DNA of 64,000 nt. Origin: Pseudomonas sp. SCB32. GTDB lineage: Bacteria; Pseudomonadota; Gammaproteobacteria; Pseudomonadales; Pseudomonadaceae. The translations under genes and the position numbers were made by a program. The number at the start of each line of letters is the position of its first letter. Position 1 is the stretch's first letter. The notes beneath the pieces are model-generated. The model saw nothing but the letters and a program-made list of their open reading frames with translations. It searched no databases and was not told the origin of the DNA. Where the stretch lies: positions 3,782,001 through 3,846,000 of the forward strand of contig NZ_CP045118.1 of NCBI RefSeq assembly GCF_009189165.1, given 5' to 3'. Shown one piece after another: positions 12,811 through 57,335 of the stretch.

Positions 12811-14016
12811 CTAAACAACCCCGTAACTACTAAACACTTTTACCCTATTGAACAGCACTCGAGTATTGCAACGCGACGACCGCACAACAACCTCTCTAAG
12901 GCGACACTTGGTCGGAATAGTAAAATCAAATTTCGTAAAGGTCTCCAGAGCATCCGTCTTCAGATAGCGATACCATCCGATGGCAGGATCGGGCGACATG
13001 GAAAGCCCTATTACATCATCGATATTTTCACCCTCAAAAACAAAGGAGATTATCGCACCGCATTCATCCGCCACACTTCCTCCACCCAGCACACTACACT
13101 CAATAGAATATGAGCCAGAACCAAGCCCAAGCTTCACCGAGAGACCATCCGAAATGAATCCCACCTTTCCAAATCCCGAATCAAACAGGACCTGACCTAT
13201 GGCATCGTGACGCTGAAAGTCCGGAACAACCGTTGGAAACTCGTCACCCAGCCGTGCACAATCCTTTGCAACCGGATGTTTGGACAGAGAATTGGAAAGA
13301 GTTATCGGCGAATCACTTCCATTGACACCCGCATCCTGGGAAACATGCCGAGTCAAAATATAACTCACGCACCGGGAGTCAAGTACCACCGGAGTCCGAA
13401 CGTCAACAGTGGTATGGTCACCGCCATCGGGGAACTGAAGACTTTTCAGCTCGGCATTGTAGCGCCCAATGAACGCCATCCCCGCCGACAACAGGGGTTG
13501 CCTGAACTTCCTGAAATTACTGAATATCCCATTAGAATAAAGCGCGGTCAGCCCCATACCAAAGGATACCGCCATTCCCTCATACTCCTGGCGCATGTAC
13601 CCGGCAAGTCGGTCCAGGTAATTTGCGCTTAGCACATCATCATCGTCGACCCTGAACCAGGCCACAGTGGTAGATTCGGCCCCCGCAAGAAAGTCAAGCA
13701 TCGCTTTTTTGTAATTCAGGTCGGAACCCGTTTTGTTCAAATACAGAACCGGGTATTTCTCCGCCGCGTCCTCGAGCACCTTCAGCCACTTTTCAGGCAG
13801 AAACTCCGAATAGAGGAGAATATGTCGATAATTGTACTTTTCAGCCATCTTCTGATAAATCGGCAAACTCCTCCCCAGAAAGATCTCAATCCTTGGAAGC
13901 ATACGTTCATCCGAGTACAACTCTCGCAGATATACAGATTCCGACTTCTTTGAAATATGCCACGCAACACTTCCCGGATGAAAAAGACTGAACTGGGTAA
14001 CTCCGAAAAAACGCAT
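12811..14016 (-). CDS. Putative rhamnosyltransferase-family glycosyltransferase
   Basis: A 401-residue protein resembling the putative rhamnosyl transferase family. The N-terminus has FFGVTQFSLFHPGS, then ELYSDERMLPRIEIFLGRSLP, followed by an acidic RVDDDD motif of the DxD kind that binds a sugar nucleotide through a metal. The C-terminal ~110 residues (from about FGKVGFISDGLSVKLG) look like a separate beta-rich domain I do not recognise. ATG 14016 has AAGGA seven bases upstream; a TTG at 14037 is possible. Base composition is clearly more AT-rich than its neighbours, a sign of transfer. No other glycan genes are adjacent. Confidence 0.7.
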   Translation of the reverse strand: MRFFGVTQFSLFHPGSVAWHISKKSESVYLRELYSDERMLPRIEIFLGRSLPIYQKMAEKYNYRHILLYSEFLPEKWLKVLEDAAEKYPVLYLNKTGSDLNYKKAMLDFLAGAESTTVAWFRVDDDDVLSANYLDRLAGYMRQEYEGMAVSFGMGLTALYSNGIFSNFRKFRQPLLSAGMAFIGRYNAELKSLQFPDGGDHTTVDVRTPVVLDSRCVSYILTRHVSQDAGVNGSDSPITLSNSLSKHPVAKDCARLGDEFPTVVPDFQRHDAIGQVLFDSGFGKVGFISDGLSVKLGLGSGSYSIECSVLGGGSVADECGAIISFVFEGENIDDVIGLSMSPDPAIGWYRYLKTDALETFTKFDFTIPTKCRLREVVVRSSRCNTRVLFNRVKVFSSYGVV

Positions 14017-14202
14017 CGCTTCGTCCTTATTTTCCAACTAATAACGGACGCTATTTACAGACCCCCAGACCTGAAATCCATCGGGCTTTTCTTAATCTTC
14101 AAGAGAGGCATCCGGGCCGTGAGCTGGAGCCCTGGAAGATCCGTTGCTCCCTAATGAAAAACCTGACACCTGCGAAATGTTTACCTCTTAAGTTGGAGAA
14201 TC

Positions 14203-14439
14203 CATGCTTTCATCCGGAAAATTCCCGGCGATCGTTTCATGCTCGCCTAGTCTTTGTCCGACATCGCTCCCAACCAGGAAAAGCATTTCGATAGCGACCG
14301 CCGCAACTTGATACGCCTGGTGACCGGCGGCCCCGAACAGTCTGCCTGGAAGGACGTACCCAATCTCGGATCCTGGACACTTCAGAATCTGGGCAGCGCC
14401 ATGGCGTTCTTGCCAGCCCGGGAAGCAACGGCCCCCTGA
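14203..14439 (+). pseudogene. Possible remnant of a small gene
   Basis: ATG 14203 has GGAG at good spacing but its frame soon becomes unconvincing. From 14254 (TTG) another frame encodes 61 residues (SDIAPNQEKHFDSDRRN, LIRLVTGGPEQSAW, LGSWTLQNLGSAMAFLPA) that read like real protein but have no ribosome site and a stop just upstream. A frameshifted small gene would explain both. I do not recognise the protein. Confidence 0.3.
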
Positions 14440-14580
14440 TCCTCGTTTGCTCACGAACGATTCGGGCGCGTCTGACCACGCGAATCCGGACGCGATGGAC
14501 CCAGGAAGTGCATCTAAGATTGGCGCGATCGCATTCGCAGACGCCGTGCGAATGCAGGAAAACGCGCAACGCTACAATGG
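14440..14580 (+). repeat. Duplicated promoter block, copy 1
   Basis: About 140 bases aligning by eye at roughly 70% with 15010-15147. Shared landmarks in order: CACGAAC, GAATCCGG followed by CGCGATG, AGTGCAT or GGTGCAT, CGCGATCGC or CGTGATCGC, TTCGCAG, TGCAGGAA, and an identical end GCAACGCTACAATGGC. TACAAT serves as the probable -10 element. The -35 region is weak in both copies, suggesting an activator. Copy 1 drives the cupin gene. Confidence 0.7.
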
Positions 14581-14606
14581 CAAGCCCCCTACGGAGCCCA
14601 GACACC

Positions 14607-14918
14607 TTGAAAATCATCCGCAGCAAGCGCTTCACCGCGAACCGTCCCTGGGGCGCGCTCGATATCGCCAACATGAACGGAATCACCACCCGGCTGCACT
14701 GGACCGACCAGCCGTACAAATGGCACATCAATGACGGCGAAGAGGTATTCGTGGTGCTCGACGGGCGGGTGGCGATGCATTACCGCGATACGAAGGGCGA
14801 GCATCAGGTCATGCTGGAAACCGGGGATATCTTCTACGCCTCCATCGGCACCGAGCATGTGGCCCACCCACAAGGCGAGGCGCGCATTCTGGTGATCGAA
14901 AGCGAGGGGAGTGTCTGA
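14607..14918 (+). CDS. Cupin-domain protein
   Basis: A 103-residue single-domain cupin. WHINDGEEVFVVLDGRVAMHY and LETGDIFYASIGTEHVAHP are the two cupin motifs with metal-ligand histidines and glutamate. I start it at TTG 14607, giving MKIIRSKRFT-like wording with GGAG upstream; the in-frame ATG 14577 overlaps the probable -10 TACAAT and so would not be transcribed. The function is unknown; such cupins are often dioxygenase- or sugar-isomerase-like or ligand sensors. Confidence 0.78.
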   Translation: MKIIRSKRFTANRPWGALDIANMNGITTRLHWTDQPYKWHINDGEEVFVVLDGRVAMHYRDTKGEHQVMLETGDIFYASIGTEHVAHPQGEARILVIESEGSV

Positions 14919-15009
14919 TCCCCACCTTCGTCCGCTGTCCGCTCCCGCAAATCGAACCTTCCCACCCGACTCTGCGCAGCCAGCCTACATGGCATCCCCC
15001 TATCCTCGC

Positions 15010-15147
15010 CCGGTCACGAACCATTCATGGCCGGGTTTGACAGCCCGAATCCGGGCGCGATGCGCCCCAGCAGGTGCATGTGAGAGCGGCGTGATCGCTT
15101 TCGCAGGCCCCGCGCGACTGCAGGAATAACTGCAACGCTACAATGGC
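15010..15147 (+). repeat. Duplicated promoter block, copy 2
   Basis: Second copy of the block at 14440-14580, with TACAAT at 15139-15144 as probable -10. The predicted transcription start near 15150 coincides with the first base of a 12-base-pair inverted repeat, so the structured element would form the very 5' end of the Bro-N mRNA. Confidence 0.7.
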
Positions 15148-15148
15148 G

Positions 15149-15213
15149 GACCGCGCGGGGAGACCCAAAAGGTCTGCCGGTTCCCGGATCCGGTCTGTCA
15201 ACCCCGCGCGGTC
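15149..15213 (+). promoter_or_regulatory. Structured RNA leader, three-way junction candidate
   Basis: GACCGCGCGGGG (15149-15160) pairs perfectly with CCCCGCGCGGTC (15202-15213). Enclosed are a hairpin AGACC-CAAAA-GGTCT (15161-15175) and a second one GCCGG...CCGGT (15176-15194). Together they make a three-stem junction about 65 bases long at the predicted 5' end of the transcript, 64 bases before the Bro-N start codon. It could control translation or be an antisense-type RNA. Confidence 0.6.
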
Positions 15214-15277
15214 TGCCACCCTTCGATGACAGCGGCGTGTGGCAGCTTCTTCAATATGGATATTCGGGAGCAAAAGC

Positions 15278-15865
15278 ATGCAAGACGACTGCTACACAGC
15301 CACAACCTTCCAACGTCACAACCGCCCATTACGCGGCGTGCTGATCGACGACCAGCCCTGGTTCGTCGCCCATGACCTTGCCTGCCTTCTCGGCGTGCGC
15401 TTCCCGCAGACGCTGGCGCAGCGGGTGGAGGAATACGAGGTACAGACCGTCCGCCTGCTCTCCGCCAGCGGAGGGGAATTGCTGGAGGACGTCATCAACG
15501 AGGCGGCGCTGTACAAGGTGCTGATCCGCTTCGGTCACCCAGAGAGCCGCACGCTCGGATGCTGGCTGTCGGAGCAGGTGATTCCGCCGATGCGCGGCCA
15601 GGTGAAGGACGACGCGCAGCGGCCACGGCGGATAACGATGCGCTGGGAATCCCTGCGGATGACGGTGCTGGACTGGCAGGGGGGGAAATCTGGGTGCCCT
15701 TCCAGCAAGTGCCGACCTTCAGCCCGTTCAAGGGCGGCAAGGGCTGGCTGGGGCGGCTCAGGGGCAGCGCGCCGAGCCACGAGGGCGGCGTCTGACGGCA
15801 GTTTGCCGCCGGAAATGAAAAAGCCCCGCGAATGCGGGGCTTTTTCGACAAGTGGCGTCGATTAG
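15278..15865 (+). pseudogene. Bro-N (antirepressor-like) gene, frameshifted at a G tract
   Basis: ATG 15278 has CGGGAG seven bases upstream. Residues 1-100 form a Bro-N domain as in phage antirepressors (FQRHNRPLRGVLIDDQPWFVAHDLACLLGV, ALYKVLIRFGHPESRTLGCWLSEQVIPPM). After WESLRMTVLDWQG the frame is lost at seven Gs (15679-15685). The proper continuation EIWVPFQQVPTFSPFKGG lies in another frame and ends at 15795; the paralogue at 56105 has LGVLEWHGRLWVPFEELP in the same place. As written, the frame runs on through the terminator hairpin to 15865, into the cold-shock gene's stop codon. One more or two fewer Gs would repair it. A phase-variable tract, a true pseudogene and a sequencing error are all possible. 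Confidence 0.75.
15817..15847. terminator. Bidirectional rho-independent terminator
   Basis: GAAAAAGCCCCGC-GAAT-GCGGGGCTTTTTC is a perfect GC stem flanked by A and T runs, so it can end transcription from both the Bro-N gene and the cold-shock gene. Confidence 0.93.
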
Positions 15866-16071
15866 ACGGCGCGAACTTGCTCGGCCTGCGGGCCTTTCTG
15901 GCCGGCGGTCACGATGAAGCTGACCTTCTGGCCTTCGTCGAGGGACTTGTAGCCGTTGCCTTCGATCTGACGGAAGTGAACGAATACGTCCGGGCCGCTT
16001 TCCGGGGTGATGAAGCCGAAGCCCTTCTCAGCGTTGAACCACTTGACGGTGCCGTTTTGACGATCGGACAT
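15862..16071 (-). CDS. CspA-family cold-shock protein
   Basis: A 69-residue single cold-shock domain that binds single-stranded RNA and DNA and melts RNA structure. [20 protein letters not shown] contains RNP1 and [11 protein letters not shown] contains RNP2. A long AT-containing leader upstream (from 16072) is in keeping with cold-regulated csp genes, but I cannot define a cold box. It is monocistronic with a strong terminator after it. Confidence 0.95.
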
Positions 16072-16905
16072 GATGTTGTCTCCAGATATTGTTTGCTAAA
16101 GGCCAGCCGAATTGCCGACCGGCGATGAGCTGAATGCGTAGTGAAGAGGTGCCGAGGAGATGGAACATCGTGTAGACAGAACATCAAGTCGCGGCGCTTT
16201 ACCGGGCAGGCAGCGCGAGCAGAATACATGGGACGTAGGGAATTGGTAGCTTTTTTTCACGTCGCTGGTCGTATTTGTCAGGCGGCCGAGGGTTTGAAGT
16301 GGGGGTTGACCGGGTGCAGAGGCCCGGTTTCTGGGCTTTCCCGCCTGTCGGGCGGGTGGATTTTCGATTGTTCGATTGGCGGCTTGAAGGCCTGCTCTAC
16401 GCCCTCGGAAATGGGCTTCGCAGGAGCGGACTCCGTTCGCGATGTTCTTGCTCTTCGTAGGGCGCATAACGCCTGAGGCGTTATGCGCCGTTTTGGCTTT
16501 GGCTTTGGGTGTTCATGCGCCGCTTCGGCGTGTGCTGGGACTTTTTGTTTCGCCCCCTCGGGCGAGTTCCTTTTGGCGAACGCCGGATAGCCGCCCTCCC
16601 AAAAGGAACCAAAAGGTCTCGTCCCGACATCCGGCCCCGGCTTCGCCGGGGTTCCCTCCCTCCGGTATCGCTCCGAGGGTCGGCTCGCAAGAGCCATCCA
16701 TGGCCCTTCAAGCCTCTCGCGGTATCCATGCCGCTCGCCCCTCTGCGCAATACCTCCACTCGGCCTCCTGACGGGACTCTGCGCGCGCCTGCGACTTTGG
16801 CTGCTTCATGCCGGGTTGCTCTTCGTAGGATGGCGTGGAGCGCAGCGATACCCATCACGGCGGATAACGCTGCGCGCTATTCGCCCTACCAAAAGCAGCC
16901 CCGCC
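16072..16905. other. 834-base gap: csp leader, palindromes and a repeat-like noncoding block
   Basis: 16072-16270 is the upstream region of the cold-shock gene. 16420-16495 contains a REP-like GCAGGAGCGGACTCCG and a palindrome GGCGCATAACGCC...GGCGTTATGCGCC. 16530-16800 is a GC-rich block with CCAAAAGGAACCAAAAGG, CGGCTTCGCCGG and CTTCAAGCCTCTCG that resembles noncoding repeats common in Pseudomonas genomes. Open frames here on both strands look like accidental GC-rich frames. No gene is called. Confidence 0.6.
16824..16890. repeat. GTAGGATGG-type palindromic repeat
   Basis: GTAGGATGGCGTGGAGCGCA, then GATACCCATCACGG and finally GCGCTATTCGCCCTACC. The first arm matches the repeat at 6163. It lies just downstream of the otsA stop. 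Confidence 0.65.
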
Positions 16906-18318
16906 TCAGTGGCCCAGGTAATGGTTCGACAACCAGTTCAGCGCCCTTCCCGGCCGGGTCAGCGCGTCGATGAAACTCGGCCCCCAGAACCTTATGTCAT
17001 TGGCCTGCAGCACCGCGTACATGTCACGATAGCGCGCCCTGCGCTCCCCCAGCGGCATGCGCAGGGCAGTATCGATGGCCTCGGCCAGGGCATCGCGGTC
17101 ATGGGGATTGACGATCAGCGCGCCGCCCAGCTCGGTGGCGGCGCCGGCGAACTGGGAGAGGATCAGCACACCGGGGTCGTCCGGATCCTGCGCGGCGACG
17201 AACTCCTTGGCGACCAGGTTCATGCCATCGCGCAGCGGCGTCACCAGGCCAATGCGCGCCTGGCGCATGACCATGGCGATGTCCTCGCGGCGGTGGTTGC
17301 GCGCCACGTAGCGCAGGGGCACCCAGGACACGGCGCCGAAGCGGCCGTTGATGTGCCCTACCCGTGCGCTGACGGCGGCATCGATGTCGGCGTACTCGGG
17401 GATGTCCTGGCGGCAGCCGGGGGATATCTGCAGGCAGGTCACATGGTTGCGCCACTCGGGGTAGCACTCCAGGAAGCGCTCGTAGCCGTCCAGGCGGTTG
17501 ACGATGCCCTTGGAGTAGTCGAGGCGGTCCACGCCGACCATCAGCGCGCGGCCGCCGAGGCTTTCGCGCAGGTCCTGGGCGGCCTGACTCCGCTCCGACG
17601 CCTCGGCCAACTGGCGGAAGCCCTCGGCATCCACGCCCACCGGGAACACACCCACGCGGAAGTGCTGGTTTTCCAGGTGATAGCGCCGGCCATCGGGGGT
17701 GGCGGCGCCGACCACGCGGGTGAGGTAGCGGGCAAAATTGCTGGCGTCGTTCTCGGTCTGGAAGCCGATCAGGTTGTATTCGGTGAGGGCGCGGATCAGT
17801 TCGGCGTGGTGGGGGATCGCGGTGAGCAGGTCCGCCGGCGGCATCGGGATGTGCAGGAAGAAGCCGATGCGGTTGGCGTGCCCACGGGCGCGCAGGGCCA
17901 GGGCGAGCGGGATGAGGTGGTAGTCGTGCACCCAGAGCACGTCGTCCGGCTCCAACAGCGGGCTCAGGCGTTCGGCGAAGAATTCGTTGACCCGCCGATA
18001 GCCACCGAAATCGGCCTCGCTGAATTCGGCGAGGTCCACCCGGTAGTGCAGGATGGGCCAGAGCACGCGGTTGGCGAAGCCGTTGTAGTACTCGTCGAAG
18101 TCCTGCGGGTGCAGGTCGGTGAGGATGTAGGTGAGGTTGCCGCGCTCCAGGGTGGTGAGCGGCCCCGGCTCCTCGGCCACGTGGCCGCTCCAGCCGAACC
18201 AGATGCCCTCACGCTCGCGCATGGCGGCCTCGATGGCGACGGCAAGCCCGCCCGGCGCGGCCGGATGGTTTTCATCGGGCACCATCACCCGGTTGGAGAT
18301 CACCACGAGGCGCGGCAT
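16906..18318 (-). CDS. otsA: Trehalose-6-phosphate synthase
   Basis: Transfers glucose from UDP-glucose to glucose-6-phosphate. The 470-residue GT20 enzyme has VVISNRVMVPDE at the N-terminus, the HDYHLIPLA motif, IGFFLHIPMP, GVDRLDYSKGI and the late DGMNLVAKEFVAAQ motif binding the nucleotide sugar. It is last in an otsB-GH15-otsA operon; its start overlaps the GH15 gene by 19 bases. It makes the osmoprotectant trehalose together with OtsB. Confidence 0.95.
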   Translation of the reverse strand: MPRLVVISNRVMVPDENHPAAPGGLAVAIEAAMREREGIWFGWSGHVAEEPGPLTTLERGNLTYILTDLHPQDFDEYYNGFANRVLWPILHYRVDLAEFSEADFGGYRRVNEFFAERLSPLLEPDDVLWVHDYHLIPLALALRARGHANRIGFFLHIPMPPADLLTAIPHHAELIRALTEYNLIGFQTENDASNFARYLTRVVGAATPDGRRYHLENQHFRVGVFPVGVDAEGFRQLAEASERSQAAQDLRESLGGRALMVGVDRLDYSKGIVNRLDGYERFLECYPEWRNHVTCLQISPGCRQDIPEYADIDAAVSARVGHINGRFGAVSWVPLRYVARNHRREDIAMVMRQARIGLVTPLRDGMNLVAKEFVAAQDPDDPGVLILSQFAGAATELGGALIVNPHDRDALAEAIDTALRMPLGERRARYRDMYAVLQANDIRFWGPSFIDALTRPGRALNWLSNHYLGH

Positions 18319-56104: not shown

Positions 56105-56569
56105 TTACGCCTCGGGCCGCTCCAGGCGCGCTACCTTGGGCAGTTCCTCGAATGGCACCCACAACCGGCCGTGCCACTCGAGCACGCCCAGATGCTGGTT
56201 GCTCCAGCTCAACTGGGATTCGCGCGGGCGCAATGCCGGGTGCTCCGCGCTGCGCTGGGCCGGCGCCACCTGGCGGTTGAGCCAGAAGCGTACGCTGCGG
56301 TTTTCCGGGTGGTGGTAGTTGATGAGGGTGACGTAGACGCCGGAATCGCTGACCAGCAGGGCCTTTTCGTAATTACCGTTGTTGTCGGTGATCCAGCAGG
56401 TGCGCAGCTGGTCGTCGTCGAGGCTGTTGTGCAGGCGCTCGTCGAGCTGCCGGCCGATCAGGCGGCCCAGGTCGGTGGCGCAGAACCAGGGTTCGTCATC
56501 GAGCAGGAAGGCGCGCAGCTGGCGGCGGTGGCGGATGAAGGTGGAGGAGATGAGGATTTCGTTATCCAT
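56105..56569 (-). CDS. Bro-N domain (antirepressor-like) protein
   Basis: A 154-residue intact relative of the frameshifted gene at 15278. The Bro-N part reads FIRHRRQLRAFLLDDEPWFCATDLGRLIG and YVTLINYHHPENRSVRFWLN. The C-terminal module is LGVLEWHGRLWVPFEELPKV, the same module split by the frameshift in the paralogue. Bro-N domains bind DNA and occur in phage antirepressors and baculovirus BRO proteins, but no phage genes are adjacent. GGAGG lies six bases before the ATG. Confidence 0.85.
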   Translation of the reverse strand: MDNEILISSTFIRHRRQLRAFLLDDEPWFCATDLGRLIGRQLDERLHNSLDDDQLRTCWITDNNGNYEKALLVSDSGVYVTLINYHHPENRSVRFWLNRQVAPAQRSAEHPALRPRESQLSWSNQHLGVLEWHGRLWVPFEELPKVARLERPEA

Positions 56570-56670: not shown

Positions 56671-57335
56671 TTCTCGCCCCCTGTTCAGAGGGGCGACCGG
56701 GTGCTTGAACACGGCAGTAGGACCGCCTGCAGTTTTCCCCTTTCGGGTGTTATATGGCTGCACGCCACCCGGCCATAGCAGTAGCTACAGCAATAAAAAC
56801 AACCGCTTTTCCGGGATGGCGGCAACCGCCTACTGGGTGTGTTCAGCACCGCACGCAAAGGTACTTACTCGCCCAGCGCTCTGTTAGCCCTCCCGAAGCG
56901 CGCGGGGATGATACGGAAACTTCGCACGCGAGATAGTGGAATCAGTTCATAGGAACGTTCACTTCTCGCAGGCATTTGCTCAGGGCTGGGATGGCGAATA
57001 CCTGTAAGGCCGAGGGGGGACACTCAGTCATTGCTCACGAACCGCACTCTGCCGTTATTTCTGTAGGGGGCGGACATTGATCGCGGGCATGGCCCGCTCC
57101 TACAGGTTGAACTCAGTGCGTCCGTTCCTTGTAGGAGCGGACCTTGTCCGCGAAATCCATCGCGGATGGCTCCGTTCCAACAGGGAAACACCTGCGCATC
57201 GCACCCACGCAGGAGCGGACTCCGTCCGCGATCAGCCGTGGTTCACGAGCAAGGAATGGGCGTCCCCCTCGGTCCTACGGGTGTTCATCCTGCAACGTGG
57301 GTGCAGTGGCAAGCCTTCGCGGACAAGGTCCGCTC
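56570..57335. other. 766-base gap: structured leader region and REP elements
   Basis: 56690-56940 is compositionally distinct and contains several short dyads (separate entry). 57000-57335 is a string of REP arms (GTAAGGCCGAGGGGGGACAC, GCATGGCCCGCTCCTACAGG, GTAGGAGCGGACCTTGTCCG, CGGACAAGGTCCGCTCCTAC). No gene is called. Confidence 0.6.
56708..56751 (-). promoter_or_regulatory. Branched RNA element candidate upstream of the second Bro-N gene
   Basis: Read on the minus strand, AACAC and GTGTT can close a junction that holds CCC-GAAA-GGG and GGCGGT-CCT-ACTGCC. It is followed, about 20 bases on, by a further hairpin with CCCCT/AGGGG arms before the small frame at 56670. The arrangement recalls the stronger three-stem element at 15149. 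The pairing is by eye. Confidence 0.4.

Follow-up and report, generated by a model that had tools for sequence, protein, structure and literature searches.

C4 antisense RNAs have been described from Proteobacteria and phages (Weinberg 2010, PMC2864571), and according to the available part of PMC5320573 that prediction includes the Pseudomonadales. Heteroimmunity of the phages P1 and P7 is described as requiring C4 (PMC12197685), and processing by RNase P is reported for phage C4 RNAs (PMC5320573). For the C4-like RNAs of Acinetobacter baumannii, the same source describes a high-coverage region that begins mostly at GGW, and twice at GGC, with apparent processing. In integron cassettes of Xanthomonas, the accessible text of PMC12444791 places sRNA-Xcc1 ahead of symE and leaves the mechanism of this RNA open; its targets are predicted generically in that of PMC2996969. 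The accessible literature on C4 and antirepressor antisense RNAs, sRNA-Xcc1 and qslA, comprising few subscription papers and no supplements, gives no account of Pseudomonas cassettes or of an Xcc1 mechanism. The C4 family itself is already known, including its multicopy chromosomal members in Acinetobacter; what may be new is an address rule for adjacent chromosomal genes, together with a link to QslA and sRNA-Xcc1.

The window, a stretch of 64,000 nucleotides from the chromosome of Pseudomonas sp. SCB32, contains a structured element at 15149-15213 that is identified, on the basis of its sequence, as a C4 antisense RNA, a phage-type silencer that is here chromosomal and lies beside an antirepressor-like gene. 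The features of the locus are as follows.

14432-14581, plus strand: second and degenerate copy of the spacer between a1b1 and C4, 78% identical to 14996-15147
14919-15803, no strand assigned: whole module of about 0.88 kb, inserted between a cupin gene and the cspA terminator (right-hand boundary approximate)
14978-15006, plus strand: predicted module promoter, with −10 TATCCT at 15001-15006, a degenerate −35 AGCCAG at 14978-14983 and 17-nt spacing
15000-15055, plus strand: a1b1 target leader, with b1 TTGACAG at 15037-15043 and a1 ATCCGGG at 15049-15055
15139-15223, plus strand: C4 antisense RNA, full-length match (positions 1-87) to Rfam RF01695 at 76.2 bits (threshold 45)
Parts of C4, plus strand: predicted processed 5′ end G15145; loop a′ TTCCCGGAT at 15181-15189; b′ CTGTCAA at 15195-15201
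15227-15232, plus strand: b2 target site TGACAG, a 6-bp perfect complement to b′
15239-15245, plus strand: c2 GTGGCAG, 7 bp complementary to the C4 3′ arm/tail CTGCCAC at 15213-15219
15262-15270, plus strand: a2 target site ATTCGGGAG, which holds the Bro-N Shine-Dalgarno GGGAG
15278-15865, plus strand: Bro-N antirepressor-like gene, 195 aa as read, matching PF02498 (31.8 bits) and PHROG anti-repressor families

Our main reading, to which we assign a probability of roughly 85%, is that a C4-family antisense RNA, carried in a self-contained cassette, silences the adjacent Bro-N gene as mainly its own target. The reading draws on family membership, a covarying outer structure, covarying complementarity at two sites, dispersed copies and the insertion at this locus.

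The original prediction had described a three-stem element here, and this description was borne out. A perfect 12-bp inverted repeat (15149-15160 / 15202-15213) encloses two hairpins, and the minimum free energy of the 65-base element from RNA folding is −40.0 kcal/mol versus −24.8 ± 3.1 in 200 shuffles (z −4.88), none of which reached the stability of the native sequence. The minus strand is also stable (z −4.01), which inverted repeats would lead one to expect; the Rfam match lies on the plus strand. In the predicted fold the outer stem extends to 16 pairs with one G-U (15145-15160 / 15202-15217). The element has no match to RF02221, the sRNA-Xcc1 family, of which the sole over-threshold member in the window is at 56687-56774.

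Homologues for comparison were taken from 101 of the 215 C4 matches in the genus (E ≤ 0.001), with the strand of two (L042 and L043) set by a sequence rule. An RNAalifold consensus of the 98 distinct sequences had 1,942 of 2,031 cells (95.6%) paired, and a two-sided change was seen at least once at 16 of the 21 consensus pairs. This consensus corresponds to the outer stem and the first hairpin; the second hairpin (P3) was not recovered and hence lies outside the covariation result, and it is present in the predicted fold of 15149-15213. The covariance comparison across Pseudomonas that had been proposed at the outset returned homologues with compensatory changes. Together with the RF01695 score, these changes uphold the choice of phage P1 C4 as the model for a structured RNA in front of a Bro-N gene.

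Complementarity between C4 and its surroundings is found in the window copy at all five sites, a1, b1, b2, c2 and a2. The P3 loop TTCCCGGAT can form nine contiguous pairs, two of them G-U, with a2 (ATTCGGGAG), and its final seven letters are perfectly complementary to a1. The b′ strand is complementary to both b2 and b1, such that a1 and b1 are each 7-bp perfect complements, to the C4 loop and to b′ respectively. The RF03163 (c4-a1b1) match covering this leader (15000-15051) scores 39.3 bits against a threshold of 46.7, with an E-value of 9.3e-08. Among paralogues, the loop and target letters differ on both sides together, for instance TCCTTGTG/CACAAGGA, and both partners are likewise altered in CTCCGGTT/AACCGGAG and TCCTACTA/TAGTAGGA.

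Modules were divided by their b′ letters, with 25 of the 101 (six of 16 in the SCB32 genome) assigned to class II and the window copy to class I. For the class I modules of the SCB32 genome, the position-limited windows, which were picked after the first pairing results so that exact ranks are partly post hoc, gave the cognate partner as best in 10/10 for loop to a2, 8/10 for b′ to b2, 9/10 for b′ to b1 and 7/10 for loop to a1, with 0/10,000 permutations in each comparison. Over all 16 modules of the genome, the same windows returned the cognate as best in 11 for a2 and in 11 for a1. With unrestricted windows the cognate was best in only 9/16 downstream and 5/16 upstream, and the mean was reached by 0/10,000 permutations on each side. 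The corresponding counts, downstream and upstream, for five other genomes were 88 and 0 (G005), 0 and 0 (G011), 0 and 0 (G017), 0 and 1 (G001), and 10 and 4 (G003) of 10,000. Eighteen C4 loci from other genera together with one P. aeruginosa phage gave 0/10,000 on both sides, with the cognate best in 12/19 and 15/19. Since modules related by descent share letters, pooled cross-genome tests count related sequences, and the test within a single genome is cleaner.

In class I, the C4 loop is an address code that covaries with the ribosome site of the adjacent gene. Because the loop serves as the address, each cassette would silence mainly its own gene. The a2 duplex (at least 6 bp) ends no more than 16 nt from the start codon in 66 of the 72 class I modules that have an ORF, and the Shine-Dalgarno was more paired than after shuffling of the upstream letters in 78 of 96 leaders, classes pooled. 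A third patch, c2, was considered and set aside from the main claim on account of weak covariation: permutation counts were 117/10,000 for the class I modules of the SCB32 genome and 0/10,000 over 76 class I modules, and in class II they were 2,611/10,000 over 25 modules and 10,000/10,000 within the genome.

Class II departs from this pattern. Its main pairing is that of the loop with a1, for which the cognate was best in 20/25 (0/10,000 permutations; 16/10,000 for the six SCB32 modules). Pairing of the loop with a2 gave 54/10,000 over the 25 modules and 739/10,000 for the six, and b′ with b2 gave 883/10,000 and 6,656/10,000, respectively. The cognate a2 was best in two of the six and in four of the 25, so the group is not uniform. 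For most of class II, occlusion of the Shine-Dalgarno is unsupported, and it is chiefly the a1b1 pairing that is kept. Such occlusion is consequently not a universal mechanism, and class II may work by attenuation at a1b1, as does the CI RNA of phage P4. Extended to all modules, the same idea would have C4 act mainly on transcription, by pairing with the nascent a1b1 and causing early termination in the manner of P4 CI RNA with seqA and seqC, the Shine-Dalgarno pairing being secondary. Retention of the a1b1 pairing in both classes speaks for it, as do the identical seqA-CI-seqC order of P4 (described in PMC4825925) and the presence of the RNA isrK just 5′ of C4 in L056, L057, L060 and L075. 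However, the window copy is a class I module, and in that class a2 at the Shine-Dalgarno covaries just as strictly; we hold a mainly transcriptional action to be possible, though rather doubtful.

Immediately upstream of the element, the hexamer TACAAT (15139-15144) had been proposed as a −10 box placing the transcript start at the first base of the hairpin. The letters are present as described; they are not the conserved promoter. At the equivalent position the 101 modules carry variable hexamers, most commonly GTCTAT (16/101) and CTCTAT (15/101), with TGTTAT also seen. Instead, 73 of 99 modules, against 1.3 expected, have a TTG-N19..21-TANNNT pair in the 80 nt preceding b1. This conserved −35/−10 pair sits approximately 31 nt 5′ of b1, that is, ahead of the a1b1 target, which rules out TACAAT as the conserved promoter and leaves a start at the first base of the element unsupported. 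The predicted window promoter aligns with the position of the conserved pair, but its −35 is off-pattern and the window copy is not one of the 73. The TACAAT position adjoins GG at 15145-15146 (GGC at 15145-15147), and it is at such a GG that processing of C4 RNAs is reported (PMC5320573).

These results also bear on whether the 65-base hairpin could be a cis-acting leader of riboswitch or attenuator type, driven by its own TACAAT promoter, instead of an antisense RNA. Beyond the presence of that hexamer, the evidence runs the other way, with the RF01695 match, the covarying complementarity in trans and a promoter located elsewhere in 73 of the 99 modules. A pure cis-acting leader was dropped in favour of an antisense RNA on the covarying loop and target complementarity, and we consider it highly improbable. 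The element had been left as either a cis-regulator or a separate small RNA, and it would probably be both: C4 is probably a segment of the leader that is excised to act as a small RNA.

The cassette would then be read, in order, as promoter, a1b1 site, C4, b2/a2 site and Bro-N gene. In the proposed mechanism, a single transcript is predicted to begin near 15013, and RNase P would cleave it at G15145, freeing a C4 RNA of about 77 nt. C4 would then target transcripts of this same kind, in which the P3 loop and b′ would pair with a2 and b2 and mask the Bro-N Shine-Dalgarno, such that the protein would not be made. A further effect, early termination or autoregulation, probably comes from pairing at the leader a1b1, as is reported for seqA and the CI RNA of phage P4. 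We infer the repression, the role of a1b1, the action of the Bro-N protein and the reason for upkeep of the cassette, which may be either a selfish silencing module or a silenced anti-regulator.

The module is missing in all three relatives in which the cupin and cspA flanks are both conserved (L227, L228 and L229). The comparison covered the homologous junction of 12 genomes, out of 20 others in the genus that have long otsA matches; nine of these 12 junction loci match on the cspA/otsA side only, and none of the 12 has an Rfam match over threshold. The degenerate spacer copy at 14432-14581 stops at the C4 start and is fused to the upstream region of the cupin gene, where the three relatives differ. 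The hexamer GTCTGA occurs at both module ends (14913-14918 and 15790-15795), and a short target duplication is possible; the right-hand occurrence doubles as the stop of an ORF in another frame.

Six genes near the window copy, together with the cupin and cold-shock genes, encode non-phage Pfam domains, and a prophage location for the window copy was rejected on these neighbours. Of 20 flanking ORF stretches from 15 loci of the SCB32 genome, seven have Pfam domains (JetD_C, Fimbrial, AceK, OmpA-like, OprD, AMP nucleosidase and CDO_I), with no phage family among them; the other 13 stretches lack a Pfam match and may include shadow ORFs, so a location outside prophages is not asserted for every one of the 16 loci. 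The JetD_C domain (Wadjet, 140 bits) is encoded at L001 3-668 on the plus strand, beside a C4 module of the SCB32 genome. A PADLOC search of five cassette proteins returned no match, and a reading of the cassettes as defence genes was rejected for these proteins.

The Bro-N gene of the window contains a run of seven G (15679-15685), after which a C-terminal WVPF..PTF motif continues in another frame (ORF 15559-15795). In relatives from L049-L051, which are 64–67% identical, this motif is in frame. A real change, phase variation and a sequencing error are all compatible with the run. The window cassette may be decaying, given its low a1b1 score, poor −35, two G-U pairs at a2 and out-of-frame Bro-N end. 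That it is a functionless remnant of a dead prophage appears unlikely: the out-of-frame end, the degenerate −35 and the partial upstream duplicate are features such a remnant could have, and set against them are the complementarity at all five sites, the non-phage neighbours and the clean insertion of a single cassette.

The genome of SCB32 (6.31 Mb, a single contig) contains 16 C4 matches over cut-off, 11 matches to c4-a1b1 at E ≤ 0.001 (two over cut-off), 17 to Bro-N (13 over cut-off) and three to sRNA-Xcc1. By position, 11 of the 17 Bro-N matches sit behind C4 and three behind sRNA-Xcc1; among the remaining three, one retains an a1b1 match and another, by eye, a b2/a2-like sequence. C4 was found in all 25 genomes of the genus, SCB32 included, with 1–20 matches each. 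In a sample of the class searched with stricter filters, any C4 was present in 18 of 274 genomes, again including SCB32. None was detected in 14 control genomes, four of which have Bro-N matches. Tandem C4 RNAs approximately 240 to 600 nt apart were observed at L081 with L086 (G005) and at G285:C9.

The genes behind C4 are not confined to Bro-N. They include QslA (PF18226, 80.4 bits), DUF3077/DUF6124-like proteins and unnamed families. QslA has 18 matches in the genus, and each of the 16 above cut-off is preceded on its own strand, at a distance of 113 to 476 nt, by an over-threshold C4, although in several loci another ORF may intervene; of the two weaker matches, one has a C4 upstream. The loci L139-L155 are QslA loci behind C4 (L156 excepted), and the surroundings of L139 look by eye like a genomic island. 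In a P. aeruginosa phage (L137), a C4 of 86.4 bits lies ahead of an 88-aa ORF and a Rha protein.

This phage unit, in which C4 precedes two genes, and the essential part of C4 in the heteroimmunity of P1 and P7 (PMC12197685) could suggest that chromosomal C4 RNAs are kept as immunity against incoming phages with matching ant genes. Such a role is improbable in our estimation. All ten class I loops of the SCB32 genome find their best match in the gene next to them, PADLOC recognised none of the five cassette proteins, and a search of phage DNA returned 22 P. aeruginosa records, of which the 20 listed each match 80 of 311 query bases (26%), confined to the C4 region. Silencing of the cassette's own gene remains the preferred reading.

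A second Bro-N gene within the window is preceded by a different RNA.

56105-56569, minus strand: second Bro-N gene, 154 aa, with a PF02498 match (G000:C1:3838261-3838515), downstream of sRNA-Xcc1
56687-56774, minus strand: sRNA-Xcc1 (RF02221, 84.3 bits, threshold 53), upstream of the second Bro-N gene

The loop of this sRNA-Xcc1, CCTACTG, is complementary to CAGTAGG both downstream and upstream. Over 30 loci, loop complementarity to the own downstream region was matched by 0/10,000 permutations, as was that to the own upstream region over 29 loci; the cognate was the single best in only 8/30 and 4/29, respectively. Pfam searches of four ORFs behind sRNA-Xcc1 identified three as SymE (PF08845), and one was without a match. 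Within the class sample, sRNA-Xcc1 is present in 20 of 274 genomes at E ≤ 0.001 and in 12 of 274 over cut-off, SCB32 included. Like C4, it precedes Bro-N or SymE-like genes and has a loop that fits an upstream and a downstream site; unlike C4, it belongs to an Rfam family of its own, for which no clan is shown.

A further RNA, isrK (RF01394), has no match in the window at the gathering threshold, nor is it among the 12 matches listed for 14000-17000. It lies directly 5′ of C4 in four of 18 other sources (the four loci named above), and in three of these (L056, L060 and L075) the best a1/b1 matches fall inside isrK, which suggests a relationship between isrK and the a1b1 leader as components of a single system.

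Taken more broadly, we lean towards the view that C4 and sRNA-Xcc1 represent two folds of one class of address-coded antisense cassette, in which an RNA processed from the leader would use a two-site code to silence the gene directly behind it. Such cassettes would occur on chromosomes, in integrons (as described in PMC12444791) and in phages, with unrelated small regulators or toxins as cargo (Bro-N, the LasR antiactivator QslA, DUF3077-like proteins, Rha and SymE). Up to 20 of them, largely orthogonal, would coexist per Pseudomonas genome, and quorum sensing through QslA would come under the control of such an RNA. With a readable address, the target of a given C4 is often predictable; this offers target predictions for the many Acinetobacter C4-like RNAs, suggests how sRNA-Xcc1 may work and provides quorum-sensing antiactivators of the QslA type with a possible RNA input. 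As antisense pairs, the cassettes would also form a naturally occurring and largely orthogonal set.

In comparison to the C4 system of P1 and P7 (RF01695, RF03163), the cassettes share the a′ loop, the b′ strand, the upstream a1b1, the a2b2 at the ribosome site and an antirepressor-type gene. They differ in being small and chromosomal, with 16 matches in one genome, and in that class II is mostly without the a2b2 pairing. The cassette Bro-N proteins (about 157–195 aa) are also shorter than most of the phage anti-repressor profiles they match (150–480 positions). With the CI RNA of P4, likened here by gene order alone, they have in common a processed antisense RNA that is flanked by a target on either side; the CI RNA differs in that it is described as acting through transcription termination (both as given in PMC4825925). 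The Group 1 C4-like sRNAs of A. baumannii, as described in PMC5320573, resemble the Pseudomonas RNAs in their many chromosomal copies (21 in AB5075), variable a′ loop and apparent processing. Their targets are left open in the available text of that source, whereas here the loop fits both the adjacent gene and the upstream a1b1.
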